Below are positions 193 to 9,177 of a stretch of 25,846 nt of DNA, one piece after another (position 1 is the stretch's first letter; the number at the start of each line of letters is the position of its first letter). The position numbers were made by a program, and so were the translations under genes. The stretch spans positions 1 to 25,846 of the IMG/VR virus record IMGVR_UViG_3300025108_000339. One strand, 5' to 3'. The DNA is from a virus. The notes beneath the pieces were generated by a model, which saw only the letters and a program-made list of their open reading frames with translations, searched no databases and was not told where the DNA came from.

Positions 193-514
193 ATGTGGTG
201 AGATAAAACCACTCAATGAGTTCCCTAAACAGGATGGACCTACACGTGCACCTCGAAGAGTCTGTCGTGACTGTAGAGGCAAACATGATAAAACCATACG
301 TAACTTAAAAAAGGCACACCCCAAACCTGAACCAGGTCCATGTCCTATTTGTGGTACACATACGGAAGTATGGGTTCTAGATCATAATCATGAGACCATG
401 GAGTTCAGAGGGTACATATGTAAGCATTGTAATGCTGGTTTAGGTTTATTAAAAGACTCACCTAGCATTGTGTCAAATGCACTAAAATACTTAAATAGTG
501 AAACTACTGATTGA
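182..514 (+). CDS. Recombination endonuclease VII-like (HNH, two zinc sites)
   Basis: 110 residues. An N-terminal zinc knuckle has Cys pairs C2/C5 and C28/C31, followed by a basic linker. The nuclease core has a second pair set, C54/C57 and C80/C83, flanking LDHNHET (D67, H68, N69, H70), the catalytic HNH-type motif of T4 gp49-like endonuclease VII. Such enzymes cut branched DNA (Holliday junctions) before packaging, a job done in T7 by the unrelated gp3. The frame is open upstream to an ATG at 26, but that stretch lies fully inside the polymerase gene, so I chose the ATG at 182, which overlaps the polymerase stop by 11 bases and starts just at the first zinc pair. It overlaps the next gene by 17 bases. 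Confidence 0.85.
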   Translation: MCTKCGEIKPLNEFPKQDGPTRAPRRVCRDCRGKHDKTIRNLKKAHPKPEPGPCPICGTHTEVWVLDHNHETMEFRGYICKHCNAGLGLLKDSPSIVSNALKYLNSETTD

Positions 515-1259
515 TGCAGATTATATTGTCTATAAATCCTGTGCCGCATGTGAATCAGAGATTGACTGGGGTGATGATGTCATCATGGTTATCTCAAAGT
601 TCAGTGAGGCTTACAAGGCTGTAAAACGCGAACTTAAAAAGATTGAAGATGCTTTCTTTTCTAGCACCGGTACTATTCTGTTCTTTAGTGATAGTGTCAA
701 TTTTAGGAAGTCTATCCTTGACTCCTACAAAGGTCACCGCCAAAGAAAGAAGCCCTGCGGATATAGACGTGTAATCGAAAAACTAAAAACTGAATATGAA
801 GTAATCAGGATGCCACAGTTGGAAGCAGATGATGCCATGGGAATCTATGCGACACTGCATCCAGGCAACTGTATTGTCAGTCCTGATAAAGATATGAAAC
901 AGATCCCTGGTCTTCTCTACAACCTAGCAGAAACCATGGAGATCACTGAAGAAGAAGGAATGCAATGGCATTTTATTCAGACACTGGCAGGTGACCAAAC
1001 AGATGGTTATGCCGGCGTTCCTGGATTAGGCGTAAAACGTGCTGCTGCTATTTTTGATAAAGACGGATACACTTGGGAAACGATTGTCAAAGCCTTCGAT
1101 GAGAAGGACTTGGATGAGTCAGTTGCCTTACAGAATGCACGTCTGGCAAAGATACTCACTATCGAGAACTATGACCTCACCGAACACCGACCCATCCTCT
1201 GGACTCCCGCCGATGCCCGTAACCGAACCCACAATGGAGCAAGAGTTCCAACTGCGTAG
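498..1259 (+). CDS. 5'-3' exonuclease, T7 gp6-like (FEN family)
   Basis: 253 residues from a GTG start (498) that overlaps the endonuclease stop. FEN-type active-site acids are visible: D6 and D8 in LLIDADY, D65, E109/D111/D112 in LEADDAMG, D130/D132 in SPDKD, and D166/D169 in GDQTDG. A helix-hairpin-helix DNA-binding stretch VPGLGVKRA follows at about 174-182, and FRKSILDSYKGHR (69-81) is the usual basic arch region. In T7 this enzyme removes RNA primers and degrades host DNA to nucleotides. The last residues (about 240-253) look like read-out sequence because the next gene starts inside them in another frame. Confidence 0.9.
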   Translation: MKLLIDADYIVYKSCAACESEIDWGDDVIMVISKFSEAYKAVKRELKKIEDAFFSSTGTILFFSDSVNFRKSILDSYKGHRQRKKPCGYRRVIEKLKTEYEVIRMPQLEADDAMGIYATLHPGNCIVSPDKDMKQIPGLLYNLAETMEITEEEGMQWHFIQTLAGDQTDGYAGVPGLGVKRAAAIFDKDGYTWETIVKAFDEKDLDESVALQNARLAKILTIENYDLTEHRPILWTPADARNRTHNGARVPTA

Positions 1260-1455
1260 GTTGAAAGACCTCCTGCCTAATGCTCAGAAGGAAGACATCA
1301 TTACTATCTTCATGGCATTGCAGCGGCAGAACTTTGCTCTGACCAATACAATTAAACAACTATTAAAAGAATGGCCCACTCGCCAGACTACTACCGAAGG
1401 GGAACCATCGAAGTATGGGACTTTATTCGTGATCAAGGACTTTCCTACCACCTAG
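1213..1455 (+). CDS. nblA: NblA-like phycobilisome degradation adaptor
   Basis: 80 residues (73 if the ATG at 1234 is used). Residues 9-54 align without gaps to the NblA pattern: EQEFQLR near the N-terminus, a first helix, NAQKED where NblA has N-x-S-x-E-Q, LQRQ where NblA has LYRQ, and a closing QLLKEW where NblA has ELLKHxW. NblA is a small helical dimer that links phycobilisome proteins to the Clp protease so that the antenna is degraded. The gene begins in the exonuclease 3' end (47-base overlap), and its last 26 residues, beyond the NblA core, overlap the next gene. No clear ribosome binding site helps choose between the two starts; 1213 gives an N-terminal arm of usual NblA length. Family call made by eye. 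Confidence 0.72.
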   Translation: MPVTEPTMEQEFQLRRLKDLLPNAQKEDIITIFMALQRQNFALTNTIKQLLKEWPTRQTTTEGEPSKYGTLFVIKDFPTT

Positions 1456-1649
1456 GTAACGCTGTAAAATACATTTGCAGAGCAGGCTACAAAGAAAACT
1501 ATGTAGAAGACCTAGAAAAAGCCATTCATTATCTCACCAACGAATTGCAATATGTCACTCCTGAGCAACCAAGCGATCGAGTTCCGCCGAGCGTACAGTA
1601 TACCGAACGATTTGAGCCTTCGGACTACTCAAAAGAATTTGATCGTTGA
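1371..1649 (+). CDS. DUF3310 family protein
   Basis: 92 residues. The first 60 fit DUF3310, a small phage family of unknown biochemical role sometimes called SaV-like or nucleotide-kinase-like: SPDYYRRGTIEVWDFI, then GNAVKYICRAGYK at 29-41 and EDLEKAIHYL at 46-55. The start lies inside the NblA-like gene in a different frame (85-base overlap). The family core begins right at PDYY, so no later start is likely. Residues 61-92 have low complexity, run under the MazG gene in another frame and are probably read-out. Its place between NblA and MazG suggests a middle-gene, metabolism-related role, but that is only context. Confidence 0.8.
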   Translation: MAHSPDYYRRGTIEVWDFIRDQGLSYHLGNAVKYICRAGYKENYVEDLEKAIHYLTNELQYVTPEQPSDRVPPSVQYTERFEPSDYSKEFDR

Positions 1650-1920
1650 GGAATTCAAAGAGTTCCTACAAGCTGATTTAGAGATGGCTCTGATGCATCC
1701 CCCTGATCGTGAAGCTTGCTTGAAAGAGCTGGCTGATCTTGTCTATGTCTGTGCTCAGTACGCTGAAAACATGGATTGGGATCTTGAACAAGCTCTACGC
1801 CGTGTACACAAATCAAACATGTCCAAGCTAGGCAATGACGGCAAGCCTGTTAAACGCAAGGACGGCAAGGTTCTTAAAGGACCTAACTACAAACCACCCG
1901 ATTTATCTGATTTAGTATAA
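1552..1920 (+). CDS. mazG: MazG-like nucleotide pyrophosphohydrolase
   Basis: 122 residues, all-alpha. The metal-binding motifs of the MazG/dUTPase-like superfamily are present: EEFKE (E33, E34, E37) and KELADLVY (E59, D62). The C-terminal NMSKLGNDGKPVKRKDGK segment (89-106) is typical of phage and HisE-like members. These enzymes hydrolyse (d)NTPs to the monophosphates and pyrophosphate with Mg2+. Cyanophage MazG was once thought to act on ppGpp, but work on cyanomyophage MazG favoured deoxynucleotides; which applies here cannot be read from the sequence. The first 33 codons overlap DUF3310 out of frame, yet AIEFRRAYSIP belongs to the family core, so this start is sound. TAATG couples it to RNR. 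Confidence 0.85.
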   Translation: MSLLSNQAIEFRRAYSIPNDLSLRTTQKNLIVEEFKEFLQADLEMALMHPPDREACLKELADLVYVCAQYAENMDWDLEQALRRVHKSNMSKLGNDGKPVKRKDGKVLKGPNYKPPDLSDLV

Positions 1921-3296
1921 TGTCTAAACTCATCTCTCGCACAGGACGTGTACAGTCCTGGATGGACAACCCCCAGTCCAGATTGCCAGTATCGTGCACG
2001 GTTATGTCGGTTGATGACAGCATGACCGGTGTCAATGGGATCGAATCCTCATGGCGATTCGTAAGCCACGCTTTACGCCATGGGGCTGGTGTCGCAGTAC
2101 ACCTGTCCAATCTTCGACCCAAGGGTACTGTTACTACAAAAGGACCAGATGAATTAGTGGCCAGTGGACCCGTGTCATTTGGACGCATCTACTCTATGCT
2201 CAATGAAGTGTTACGCAGAGGTGGCACCTTCCGTAATGGGGCTTGCGTTTTGCATCTCGACATCGACCACCCTGACTCACTCGAATTCATTCAAACACCC
2301 CGACATGAACTACCCTGGGTTAAACGCTGCATCAATCTCACTGAAGAATCCTGGCATGAGTTCCCCTACAAAGAAGAACTCCTCCAAGGGATTCGGAAAG
2401 GAGACATCTGGCTGAATAAAATTAGGTACGACAAAGATGGAAACCGCATCAGAGGAAACGTCTGTCTTGAGGTTTACCTGCCTTCACGAGGCACATGCTT
2501 GTTGCAGCATGTCAATCTCGCTGCCTGTACTCTCTCTGACATCCCAAAAGCTTTCGTTGAGGGTATGTCCGAGTTGTGTGCGCTCCATCCTACGACAGGT
2601 GTCGGAGAATCTGGGGAATACCTCAGCCCAGACGTTGATAAGCAAGTCGGGCTTGGAATGCTTGGACTTGCCAACTTGCTCCGCCAAAATGGAGTCAAGT
2701 ATGGAGAGTTTGGAATAGCTCTCCGTGATATTAATCAAGAGAAGGTAAACTTCTCAACCGCTCATGATATCGCTCAGTCCATCAGAGATGGCATTGAGCA
2801 GGCTGCAGCCATCGCCAAGAGTCATAACATGGTAAGAGCCTTTGCCATCGCTCCTACGGCCTCCTGCAGCTATCGTAGCGTCGGTCTAGACGGGTTCACT
2901 TCCTGTCCTGAGATCGCTCCACCTATTGCTCGGTCAGTTGACCGGGACAGTGGCACCTTTGGTGTCAATACCTATGAATATGGCGATGTTGAGATCGCCT
3001 CTGAAGTAGGCTGGGAATCGTACAAACTTGTAGCGGACCAGCTTATGATAATGCTTGAAAAAACAGGACTTCTTCACGGATACTCGTTCAACTCATGGAG
3101 TGATCAGGTAACCTATGACAATGCGTTCATTGAAGAGTGGCTATCGTCTCCTCAAACAAGCCTCTATTACAGTTTGCAGGTAATGGGAGACGTCCAGGAC
3201 AAGACTAGTGCATACGCTGCACTTGATGAGTCTGATGTTGATGATTACCTTGCGGACTTGTTAACTCCTGAACCTCAATGTGATTGCGCAGAATGA
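1920..3296 (+). CDS. Ribonucleotide reductase, class I-like alpha subunit (compact)
   Basis: 458 residues, against about 700-760 for cellular NrdA/NrdE; there is no ATP-cone and the N-terminus begins almost at the catalytic barrel. Visible catalytic residues: C26 in PVSCTV (first redox Cys), N180/C182/E184 in NVCLEV (Asn, thiyl-radical Cys, Glu), C193 as redox partner, the PTASCSYRS loop, the radical-transfer Tyr pair Y416/Y417 in LYYSLQ, and a C-terminal Cys pair C454/C456. It reduces ribonucleotides to deoxynucleotides. Cyanopodovirus RNR was long annotated as class II, but the Tyr pair and the beta-subunit gene next door support class I. The start overlaps the mazG stop (TAATG) and the stop overlaps the beta start (ATGA). 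Confidence 0.87.
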   Translation: MSKLISRTGRVQSWMDNPQSRLPVSCTVMSVDDSMTGVNGIESSWRFVSHALRHGAGVAVHLSNLRPKGTVTTKGPDELVASGPVSFGRIYSMLNEVLRRGGTFRNGACVLHLDIDHPDSLEFIQTPRHELPWVKRCINLTEESWHEFPYKEELLQGIRKGDIWLNKIRYDKDGNRIRGNVCLEVYLPSRGTCLLQHVNLAACTLSDIPKAFVEGMSELCALHPTTGVGESGEYLSPDVDKQVGLGMLGLANLLRQNGVKYGEFGIALRDINQEKVNFSTAHDIAQSIRDGIEQAAAIAKSHNMVRAFAIAPTASCSYRSVGLDGFTSCPEIAPPIARSVDRDSGTFGVNTYEYGDVEIASEVGWESYKLVADQLMIMLEKTGLLHGYSFNSWSDQVTYDNAFIEEWLSSPQTSLYYSLQVMGDVQDKTSAYAALDESDVDDYLADLLTPEPQCDCAE

Positions 3297-4009
3297 CCCC
3301 GTATGATAAACTAATCTCCAGGAAACGGACCTGGACTCCTGTTCAAACTGAAGCAGGTACACTTAAATCTGGCGCGGAAGAAGCTGTTTACCGCGCCTTA
3401 GCTCTCCGCTGTCTCGAACTGCCGGTGGGTGACTTTATATCACACTCATTAAAAGGTGAGATCCCTGATGCAGCACGTCAGATCCTAGAAATGAACATCA
3501 AGGATGAAGAAAACCATGATTTGGCTCTGAACTACGCTGTAAATGCACTCGGTACCGATGAAAAAGCAGAACGAGAAGCACAGATCTTGAAAAAAGCATG
3601 GGAAGAGCATGAAGACCACACAATTGTCAAGGCTATGGTAGCCGAACGTAGTGTTTTCTTCTGTTTGCTCCCATTCTTTCGCTATGCCGGAGATGCTGGC
3701 CTGAGGACGATTTCCGCAGATATTAGCCGTGATGAACAGATTCATGTTGCTACGAATTCTCTTGTATGCCGTGAGCTGGGTCTTAATCCTTCTAAGTCTC
3801 TCAACAAACTGAGAAAAGCAACTGTAGACTGGGTTTTCCAGCCTCTACAAGCTGAAAACACCGATAAGTTTTTAGCGAAAAATTTTTGGCACTCACAGAG
3901 CGATTCACTTTTTGAAAAGGGTATCGCAGAGGGCTTTTCTAACACCAGGTCGGCACGTATGCCGGCATTCTTTGAACATTCCAATGTCAATCTCCCTCAA
4001 TACGCTTGA
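3293..4009 (+). CDS. Ribonucleotide reductase beta subunit-like (ferritin-like, no radical Tyr)
   Basis: 238 residues. Ferritin-like metal ligands are present in the right order: probably E42, then E72 and H75 (EENH), E119 (VAERSVF), and E148 and H151 (DEQIH). It would generate the radical used by the alpha subunit. The Tyr that normally follows the first ExxH by four residues is Leu79 here, so a stable tyrosyl radical at the classical place is not possible; a metal-based (Mn or Mn/Fe) oxidant or another residue such as Tyr81 must be used. The frame is open to a TTG at 3284, but the ATG at 3293 overlaps the alpha stop as ATGA and is the better start. Shorter than usual NrdF (about 320 residues). 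Confidence 0.82.
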   Translation: MTPYDKLISRKRTWTPVQTEAGTLKSGAEEAVYRALALRCLELPVGDFISHSLKGEIPDAARQILEMNIKDEENHDLALNYAVNALGTDEKAEREAQILKKAWEEHEDHTIVKAMVAERSVFFCLLPFFRYAGDAGLRTISADISRDEQIHVATNSLVCRELGLNPSKSLNKLRKATVDWVFQPLQAENTDKFLAKNFWHSQSDSLFEKGIAEGFSNTRSARMPAFFEHSNVNLPQYA

Positions 4010-7067: not shown

Positions 7068-8147
7068 ATGACAGCTACTATCGCACTTCAGAAGCGTTCC
7101 TCTTTGTGGGATCGCTACCTCCAGTGGGTTAGCAGCACTGAGAACCGGCTCTATGTGGGACACTTCGGTGTCCTCATGGTACCTTGTCTACTGGCAGCTA
7201 CCACTTGTTTTATCATCGCATTCATTGCAGCACCCCCAGTTGATATCGATGGAATCAGAGAACCAGTCGCAGGCTCCCTCCTGTACGGAAACAACATCAT
7301 CTCTGGAGCGGTTGTCCCCTCCAGCAACGCAATCGGACTACATCTCTACTCAATCTGGGAAGCCGCTTCCCTCGATGAGTGGCTCTACAACGGAGGACCA
7401 TACCAACTTGTGGTGTTCCACTTTCTCATCGGTGTCTTCGCTTACATGGGACGCGAATGGGAACTTAGTTACCGACTCGGAATGAGGCCCTGGATCTTTG
7501 TCGCATACTCCGCACCAGTTGCTGCTGCAACAGCTGTATTCCTTGTCTATCCTTTTGGACAAGGTAGTTTCTCTGATGGAATGCCGTTGGGCATCTCGGG
7601 TACCTTCAACTACATGTTGGTATTCCAAGCTGAGCACAACATTCTTATGCATCCCTTCCATATGCTTGGGGTCGCTGGTGTTTTTGGTGGCAGTTTGTTT
7701 AGCGCCATGCACGGTAGCCTTGTTACTTCTTCTCTGGTTCGTGAGACTACTGAAAGCGAGTCACAGAACTATGGTTACAAGTTTGGGCAAGAAGAAGAGA
7801 CGTATAACATCGTAGCTGCACACGGTTACTTCGGACGTTTGATCTTCCAATATGCATCTTTTAATAACTCACGTAGCCTTCACTTTTTCTTGGCTGCTTG
7901 GCCTGTGGTGGGTATCTGGTTCACTGCACTTGGTGTGAGCACCATGGCATTCAACTTGAATGGCTTCAACTTCAACCAGTCTATTCAGGCTGCTGATGGT
8001 CGTGTGATCAACACCTGGGCTGACATCCTCAACCGAGCTGGTCTTGGTATGGAAGTCATGCACGAGCGTAATGCACACAACTTCCCTCTTGACTTGGCAA
8101 CTGCTGAGTCTGCACCTATCGCACTTACTTCACCCGCTATCGGTTAA
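7068..8147 (+). CDS. psbA: Photosystem II reaction-centre protein D1
   Basis: 359 residues, full length and intact, no intron. Key D1 residues are all at their usual numbers: E130 (the high-light form; low-light D1 has Gln), Y161 (redox-active Tyr Z), D170 and E189 (Mn cluster side), H190, H198 (P680), H215 (non-haem iron). The mature end is at Ala344 (NFPLDLA) and a 15-residue C-terminal extension follows, as in cyanobacteria. It replaces light-damaged host D1 in the thylakoid membrane so that energy supply continues during infection. It starts 7 bases after the scaffold stop, with an AT-rich leader and no clear Shine-Dalgarno, and ends in TAATG with hli. An auxiliary metabolic gene of host origin. 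Confidence 0.98.
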
Positions 8148-8317
8148 TGAACGACACTCAAATCTGGCCCACCGAACCACGTATGTACATCGACGAAAAC
8201 TCTATTCCTCATAACGAACGCGCCGAGCGTCTTAATGGCAGGCTTGCCATGCTCGGCGTGATGGCTGCGCTTGGAGCGTATGCACTCACTGGTCAAATTA
8301 TCCCCGGAGTATGGTAA
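8147..8317 (+). CDS. hli: High-light-inducible protein (HLIP)
   Basis: 56 residues, one membrane helix (about 33-50). The chlorophyll-binding signature ExxNGRxAMxG is complete (E27, N30, G31, R32, A34, M35, G37). HLIPs bind chlorophyll and carotenoid near photosystem II, help assemble and repair it and dissipate excess energy. The ATG overlaps the psbA stop (TAATG), so the two photosynthesis proteins are translationally coupled. The N-terminal 25 residues are polar and of phage-HLIP type. The signature codons also form a long RNA hairpin (see 8221-8258). Confidence 0.93.
   Translation: MNDTQIWPTEPRMYIDENSIPHNERAERLNGRLAMLGVMAALGAYALTGQIIPGVW
8221..8258 (+). other. Long hairpin inside hli
   Basis: CGCCGAGC (8221-8228) pairs with GCTCGGCG (8251-8258), and directly inside ATGGCA (8235-8240) pairs with TGCCAT (8245-8250) around a GGCT loop. 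That makes 14 Watson-Crick pairs with one six-base bulge (GTCTTA) on the 5' side. It covers the codons of the chlorophyll-binding signature. Whether it folds in the cell or has a role (mRNA stability, processing after psbA) is inference. Confidence 0.6.
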
Positions 8318-8400
8318 TGCCTCAAGGTAAAGGAACTTATGGATCCAAAAAGGGTCGCCCACCTAAAAAGAACAAACCGATGAAACCGGTTAAAAAATAA
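8317..8400 (+). CDS. 27-residue lysine-rich peptide
   Basis: A very short gene: MPQGKGTYGSKKGRPPKK and a second Lys/Pro cluster, ending KPVKK. Eleven of 27 residues are Lys. Its ATG overlaps the hli stop (TAATG) and its TAA overlaps the next ATG (TAATG), so it sits in a chain of coupled genes, which supports it being translated. Short peptides beginning with a KGTYGSKxGRPPKK motif are, as I recall, found in many phages, without a known function. A nucleic-acid-binding role is guessed from charge only. Confidence 0.6.
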   Translation: MPQGKGTYGSKKGRPPKKNKPMKPVKK

Positions 8401-8636
8401 TGGCTAAATCCGTTAGTCTACGGATGGGGAAGCACAAGTCACGGTCTGGCGGCTTGACAAAAGCAGGTCGCGAGAAGTATAATCGTGAAACAGGTTCAAA
8501 CCTGAAAGCTCCCCAACCAGGTGGCGGTCCTCGTAAGCGGTCCTTCTGTGCCCGAATGAAAGGTAACAAAGGACCGATGAAAAAGAACGGTAAGCCCACC
8601 CGGAAGGCTCTAGCCCTACGTAAATGGAAATGTTAA
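8400..8636 (+). CDS. Small basic phage protein, DUF6321-like
   Basis: 78 residues, strongly basic, rich in Gly and Lys, with LTKAGREKYNRETGSNLKAP (20-39), a PGGGPRKRSFCARMKG block (about 40-55) and an end KALALRKWKC. This pattern is widespread in phages and matches what I know as DUF6321, of unknown function. The ATG overlaps the preceding stop by one base. Only two Cys (one the last residue), so no zinc site is evident. It may bind nucleic acid, but nothing proves it. Confidence 0.78.
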   Translation: MAKSVSLRMGKHKSRSGGLTKAGREKYNRETGSNLKAPQPGGGPRKRSFCARMKGNKGPMKKNGKPTRKALALRKWKC

Positions 8637-8795
8637 ATGGCTAAACAAGGATTGTATGCCAACATCCACGCCAAGCGTAAGCGTATCGCTGCTGGCAGTG
8701 GTGAAAAAATGAGGAAGCCTGGGGCTGCTGGAGCACCTACGGCTGCTAACTTCAAACGCTCCGCAAAAACTGCAAAGAAACCAAAGAAAGCTTAA
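8637..8795 (+). CDS. 52-residue lysine/alanine-rich protein
   Basis: Starts at the base directly after the previous stop (TAAATG). Sequence features: GLYANIHAKRKRIAAGSGEK, then RKPGAAGAPTAANFKRSAKT and a Lys-rich end. Thirteen Lys and four Arg against one Glu, so very basic. The opening LYANIHAKRKRIAAGSGEKMRKPG is a pattern I recognise from small hypothetical proteins of many marine phages; function unknown. Third in a row of tiny basic genes. Confidence 0.72.
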   Translation: MAKQGLYANIHAKRKRIAAGSGEKMRKPGAAGAPTAANFKRSAKTAKKPKKA

Positions 8796-8805
8796 ACTAA
8801 TTACT

Positions 8806-9177
8806 ATGAAAACTATCGCTCTTTCCACCCTCGCGCTGTCTTCTTTCGCCCTGCCTGCTATGGCTGGTGCATACTTGAACGTCGAAGCTAACCAAGGCTG
8901 GTCCGGTGAGGACTACCAAGGTGCTTTGTTGGAGACTCACGTGGGCTATGAAAACTCCCTGGGTGACAGCGCAAGCTGGTACATTCAAGGGGGTCCTGCC
9001 ATCTCCTTCCCGGATGACGCTGAGCAAGTCGGTGCTGCCTCTGGCAAAGTCGGTCTCGGTGTCGATGTGACTAAGAAACTCTCCGTCTATGGTGAAGTCT
9101 CTGCCATCACGTCTGAAGGCTTGGAGCTTGAAGGTCTCGGCGTTGGTGCCAAGACCGGTGTTAAGTACAAATTCTAA
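8806..9177 (+). CDS. Secreted outer-membrane beta-barrel-like protein
   Basis: 123 residues. A clear Sec signal peptide: K2, hydrophobic core to about residue 16, and an Ala-x-Ala site (PAMA) with likely cleavage after A20. The mature 103 residues alternate polar and non-polar, with repeated short strands separated by Gly/Asp turns (AYLNVEANQGW, LLETHVGYENSL, SWYIQGGPAISF, SGKVGLGVDVTKKLSVYGEV, GLGVGAKTGVKYKF) and the last residue is Phe in YKF, the usual sorting signal for outer-membrane barrels. Picocyanobacteria have similar small proteins. It would sit in the host outer membrane, perhaps as a receptor mask or pore; role is inference. Confidence 0.75.
   Translation: MKTIALSTLALSSFALPAMAGAYLNVEANQGWSGEDYQGALLETHVGYENSLGDSASWYIQGGPAISFPDDAEQVGAASGKVGLGVDVTKKLSVYGEVSAITSEGLELEGLGVGAKTGVKYKF

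Follow-up and report, generated by a model that had tools for sequence, protein, structure and literature searches.

A probable NblA-type proteolysis adaptor encoded between overlapping genes in a T7-like marine cyanophage

Results

Gene content at the locus

Analysis of the window (the whole 25,846-nt stretch of IMG/VR record IMGVR_UViG_3300025108_000339) revealed the gene content and order of a T7-like marine cyanophage (Autographiviridae), including genes for an exonuclease, MazG, ribonucleotide reductase (RNR), connector, scaffold, psbA/hli, capsid and tail tube. Near the start of the window, on the plus strand, a T7-like 5'-3' exonuclease gene (498..1259; PF02739, E 1.2e-9) is followed by an open reading frame (1213..1455) that is open from ATG to TAG and encodes the 80-residue product MPVTEPTMEQEFQLRRLKDLLPNAQKEDIITIFMALQRQNFALTNTIKQLLKEWPTRQTTTEGEPSKYGTLFVIKDFPTT; by a DUF3310 gene (1371..1649; PF11753, E 3.7e-14); by a gene for a MazG-like/PRA-PH pyrophosphohydrolase (1552..1920; PF01503, E 1.8e-7); and by the gene for the RNR large subunit (1920..3296; PF02867, E 1.8e-20). 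The short frame overlaps the genes on both sides, as an earlier sequence-only reading of this DNA had described, sharing 47 nt with the exonuclease gene and 85 nt with the DUF3310 gene. Directly after the RNR large subunit, a 241-residue ORF (3284-4009, plus strand) showed a weak likeness to the RNR small chain (PF00268, E 0.031, below the cut-off), although several sister-phage records describe the RNR as class II.

The same reading had placed psbA and hli alongside the short gene, and both were found on the plus strand 6 kb downstream: psbA, encoding the photosystem II D1 protein (7068..8147; PF00124, 292 bits), and a gene for an hli-type (high-light-inducible) protein of 56 residues (8147..8317), whose PF00504 score of 22.1 bits is just under the curated cut-off of 22.3 and whose assignment also uses the motif ERLNGRLAMLG. 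Placed between psbA/hli and the capsid gene is a 123-residue protein with a signal-peptide-like start (8806-9177, plus strand), which matched PF24653, the cyanophage outer membrane protein-like beta barrel, with 136.9 bits. A 78-residue basic protein (8400-8636, plus strand) matched DUF6321 (PF19846), and no family was matched by the 52-residue lysine-rich ORF beside it (8637-8795).

Match to the NblA family and predicted structure

The product of ORF 1213-1455 matched the NblA family (PF04485) in hmmscan with 31.3 bits and an E-value of 2.9e-7, above the curated Pfam cut-off of 25 bits, and a six-frame scan showed this ORF to be the only matching place in the whole window. The score is modest compared to the approximately 47-93 bits of cellular NblAs above the cut-off. 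Residues 7-53 aligned to profile positions 3-49 with equal lengths, and all four motifs of the ungapped NblA pattern noticed in the sequence-only reading are present (EQEFQLR at 9-15, NAQKED at 23-28, LQRQ at 36-39 and QLLKEW at 49-54). Profile-profile comparison (hhalign) of the phage family with an alignment of 25 cyanobacterial NblAs gave an E-value of 1.6e-6 and a probability of 90%, and phmmer matched PDB entry 3cs5, the NblA of S. elongatus, with an E-value of 0.021.

AlphaFold2 modelling of the single chain predicted a conserved core (residues 2-55; 1216..1377, plus strand) consisting of a helix at residues 8-20, a turn and a helix at residues 26-53, followed by W54-P55, with a mean pLDDT of 85 for the core. 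This helix-loop-helix fits an NblA subunit of about 55-65 residues. The claim of an NblA-like gene in a T7-like cyanophage was therefore upheld by the Pfam score, by the two predicted helices and by the codon-level conservation described below. Like the cellular NblAs of Anabaena (1ojh) and S. elongatus (3cs5), the phage protein combines this helix-loop-helix length with an N-terminal (P)xELTxEQxF and a C-terminal LLKxxW. In contrast, identity to the cellular proteins is only about 27%, the central helix contains KEDIITIFMALQRQ where cellular NblA has REQAQDFLVKLYEQ, and the C-terminal Trp comes one residue earlier in the phage protein.

Ten residues were invariant in the 37 phage sequences (E9, Q10, L21, A35, L36, Q37, Q39, N45, L50 and W54). 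The first two of these lie in the phage segment TMEQEF, which aligns with cellular LSLEQQF, the ClpC-binding end of NblA. At the other end of the core, the invariant L50 and the variable K52 align with L51 and K53 of Anabaena NblA, which were reportedly identified as phycobiliprotein-binding residues by Bienert et al. 2006.

A Foldseek search against the PDB returned only matches with E-values above 4, none of them NblA, and VIA-align and Foldseek searches with the full and core models gave no meaningful match. Because short two-helix models make poor queries, this silence says little for or against NblA. It is one of two observations that could be read as favoring an unrelated small helical phage protein whose likeness to NblA is coincidental, the other being that phrog_27006, the group to which each of the 37 aligned members is assigned, carries the label 'unknown function'. 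However, coincidence would have to account for a significant Pfam match and an independent profile-profile match, for an N-terminal PxxELTxEQxF in common with cellular PIELSLEQQF, and for two predicted helices of the right lengths, and we consider it highly improbable.

Selection on the reading frame and its start

Codon-by-codon comparison of 13 close relatives (the window and IMG/VR loci) revealed strong constraint in the nblA frame. Within the 108 nt free of other genes (1261-1368), pS was 0.657 and pN 0.069, giving a dN/dS of 0.047; third codon positions accounted for 33 of the 49 variable columns, and stops were present in both alternative frames. The exonuclease overlap (1213-1259) gave a dN/dS of 0.11 in the nblA frame versus >1 in the exonuclease frame, and a wider set of relatives repeated this pattern in three groups. 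This pattern indicates that the C terminus of the exonuclease is shaped by nblA and not the reverse, so that the short gene appears, from these comparisons, to dictate the end of its larger neighbor.

The situation is different at the other end, in the C-terminal tail (residues 56-80; 1378..1455, plus strand). Over the DUF3310 overlap, dN/dS was 1.08 in the nblA frame compared to 0.195 in the DUF3310 frame, indicating that the last approximately 25 residues are a by-product of DUF3310, shaped by that gene and unconstrained as NblA. Most of the tail has an AlphaFold pLDDT below 50, and the homologues of S-TIP37, S-RIP2 and S-SBP1 end at about residue 65.

The overlaps on both sides and a tail unconstrained in its own frame are what would be expected if the ORF were no gene at all and reflected the exonuclease and DUF3310 genes read out of frame. 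The codon-level test rejected this explanation, which we regard as almost certainly wrong, since the constraint and the excess of third-position changes were found in the 108 nt without overlap and nblA was the constrained frame within the exonuclease overlap. The codon-level conservation in related phages on which the sequence-only reading had staked its claim is thus present. Taken with the Pfam E-value and a frame kept at 45 related viral loci, this dN/dS places ORF 1213-1455 beyond chance.

Three in-frame ATG codons on the plus strand could serve as the start. S-TIP37 and the close relatives share the ATG at 1213, which most other homologues lack; where it is missing, translation could usually start in frame from an ATG at codon -12/-13. 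In the window this ATG lies at 1171..1173 (codon -13); it is the sole nearby start in several homologues, and the annotation of the P-SSP7 gene PSSP7_019A begins at the equivalent codon. However, this ATG is formed within adjacent Tyr and Asp codons of the exonuclease, and its conservation may therefore be that of the exonuclease. Some annotations (e.g. KBS-P-1A CYZG_00043) begin at the internal ATG encoding M8 (1234..1236), in place of which certain homologues have CTG, ATA, ATC, TAT or ACA. Each of three groups of relatives showed constraint on codons 1-7 in the nblA frame, and these codons align with PIELS of cellular NblA, indicating that translation begins upstream of codon 2. On this basis the ATG at 1234 was rejected and is probably not the true start; the ATG at 1213 is the simplest start for the window, and that at 1171 is possible.

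Homologues in other cyanophages and the host

Homologues were found by tblastn in 37 phage records and at 45 IMG/VR loci (contigs), at the same locus in the records examined. In most of these records the gene is unannotated or a 'hypothetical protein', in keeping with the earlier remark that it is easily missed, and we attribute its routine omission to its nesting between two overlapping genes. The NblAs of the marine T7-like cyanophages S-TIP37, S-RIP2, S-CBP1/3/4 and S-SBP1 also lie after the exonuclease and before MazG-RNR, with a core of equal length and about 44-58% protein identity to the window. In the Synechococcus phage S-TIP37 the shared order extends through exonuclease, nblA, the MazG region and RNR to hli/psbA. 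In contrast to S-TIP37 and S-RIP2, which stop at about residue 65, the window lineage reads on to residue 80. The freshwater cyanophages Ma-LMM01, MaMV-DC and PaV-LD likewise carry an NblA, whose proposed role is to remove the antenna of the infected cell (PMC4103541); PMC9602691 describes this freshwater group as lying far from the marine and estuarine one in phylogeny.

Scores against PF04485 varied across the family. The window, S-TIP37, S-SRP01 and MedDCM-OCT-S28-C3 exceeded the cut-off, some same-locus homologues scored below it, and a scan of those in P-SSP7, NATL1A-7, P-SSP2 and S-B28 found no match. A search of 151 genomes from the family to which a Prochlorococcus genome belongs yielded few PF04485 matches, and for at least one of them (L076) the surroundings are phage-like and include a neighboring exonuclease.

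The sequence-only reading took the gene to predict a host with phycobilisomes, namely Synechococcus. This did not hold, because same-locus homologues are present in the Prochlorococcus phages P-SSP7, P-SSP3 and NATL1A-7, and homologues also occur on contigs assigned to Prochlorococcus genomes; Prochlorococcus has chlorophyll a2/b2 antennae and lacks phycobilisomes and nblA (PMC7439483). Thus, nblA alone is no predictor of a phycobilisome host. For the window phage itself a Synechococcus host is plausible, judging from its NblA score and from its psbA, which at the DNA level is about 78-80% identical to the psbA genes of cyanomyoviruses with Synechococcus as their recorded host.

Seven same-locus homologues of Prochlorococcus-type phages (L048, L049, L062, L063, L066, L070 and L072) keep the NblA-like EQ...W layout, and this group showed no PF04485 match where scanned. 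One of them, P-SSP2 (L062, record GU071107.1), has Synechococcus sp. WH8017 in its host field; for P-SSP3, a close sister, the host given is Prochlorococcus MIT9312, and the host field of the P-SSP2 record may be wrong. A clean link between low PF04485 scores and a Prochlorococcus host was rejected, as the score is also low or absent in the Synechococcus phages S-CBP1, S-CBP3 and S-B28.

Discussion

We conclude that ORF 1213-1455, which lies among the replication genes of a T7-like cyanophage (Autographiviridae), very probably encodes a phage NblA, a small helix-loop-helix proteolysis adaptor. The gene and its locus, its membership in the family, the predicted two-helix shape, the purifying selection and the co-occurrence with psbA and hli were established directly for the window. 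NblA is a ClpC adaptor that hands phycobilisome proteins over to degradation (PMC7966870), with an N-terminal motif that binds ClpC and a C-terminal motif that binds phycobiliproteins (PMC4103541). By analogy with this family, the phage protein would dimerise, and most likely it would bind the ClpC chaperone of the host through its N-terminal EQxF region and phycobiliproteins through LLKEW at the C-terminal end of its second helix. The host Clp protease would then dismantle the phycobilisome, and the resulting breakdown could benefit the phage by freeing amino acids and reducing the input of light, with photosystem II kept at work by the psbA and hli that the phage supplies.

The occurrence of the gene in phages of Prochlorococcus suggests that at least part of the family acts elsewhere, or not on phycobilisomes. 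One such alternative is that the protein is an NblA descendant whose present role as a ClpC adaptor concerns different host proteins, or consists in redirecting Clp more generally, with phycobilisome degradation lost or of secondary importance. Such a change of role would account for the retention of the gene by P-SSP7, P-SSP3, NATL1A-7 and the Prochlorococcus-assigned contigs in hosts without phycobilisomes, and it is consistent with purifying selection on the P-SSP7-type frame (pN/pS 0.27) and with a middle section of the phage family (KEDIITIFMALQ) strongly unlike cellular NblA. Nevertheless, the window protein itself has kept a score above the NblA threshold, a marine phage NblA is reported in the literature as cited here to be active on phycobilisomes, and low PF04485 scores track phage clade as much as host, and we therefore consider this alternative unlikely for the window. 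Somewhat less doubtful, though still improbable, is that the whole cyanopodovirus NblA family, once dedicated to phycobilisomes, drifted towards a wider role as a ClpC adaptor, with the window copy at the NblA-like end of the range. Because purifying selection maintains the gene at a single locus in Synechococcus and Prochlorococcus phages alike, its targets may extend beyond phycobiliproteins.

A phage-encoded NblA remains our preferred reading, and the gene as such is not new. Earlier reports of nblA in marine cyanophages, to which the sequence-only reading had alluded, do exist: as described in PMC9602691, Nadel et al. 2019 predicted nblA for 14 cyanopodovirus isolates from marine and estuarine waters and found nblA from marine viral metagenomes to be active on expression in S. 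elongatus, and Nadel et al. 2025 (Nature 648:434-442; 10.1038/s41586-025-09656-x), as cited in PMC12892361, dealt with viral NblA and oceanic photosynthesis. The removal of the antenna by viruses is reported there to affect light capture in the ocean, with a loss estimate, quoted in PMC12892361, of up to 5%. With the window, the oceanic phages that may dismantle the antenna of their host gain a further environmental lineage.
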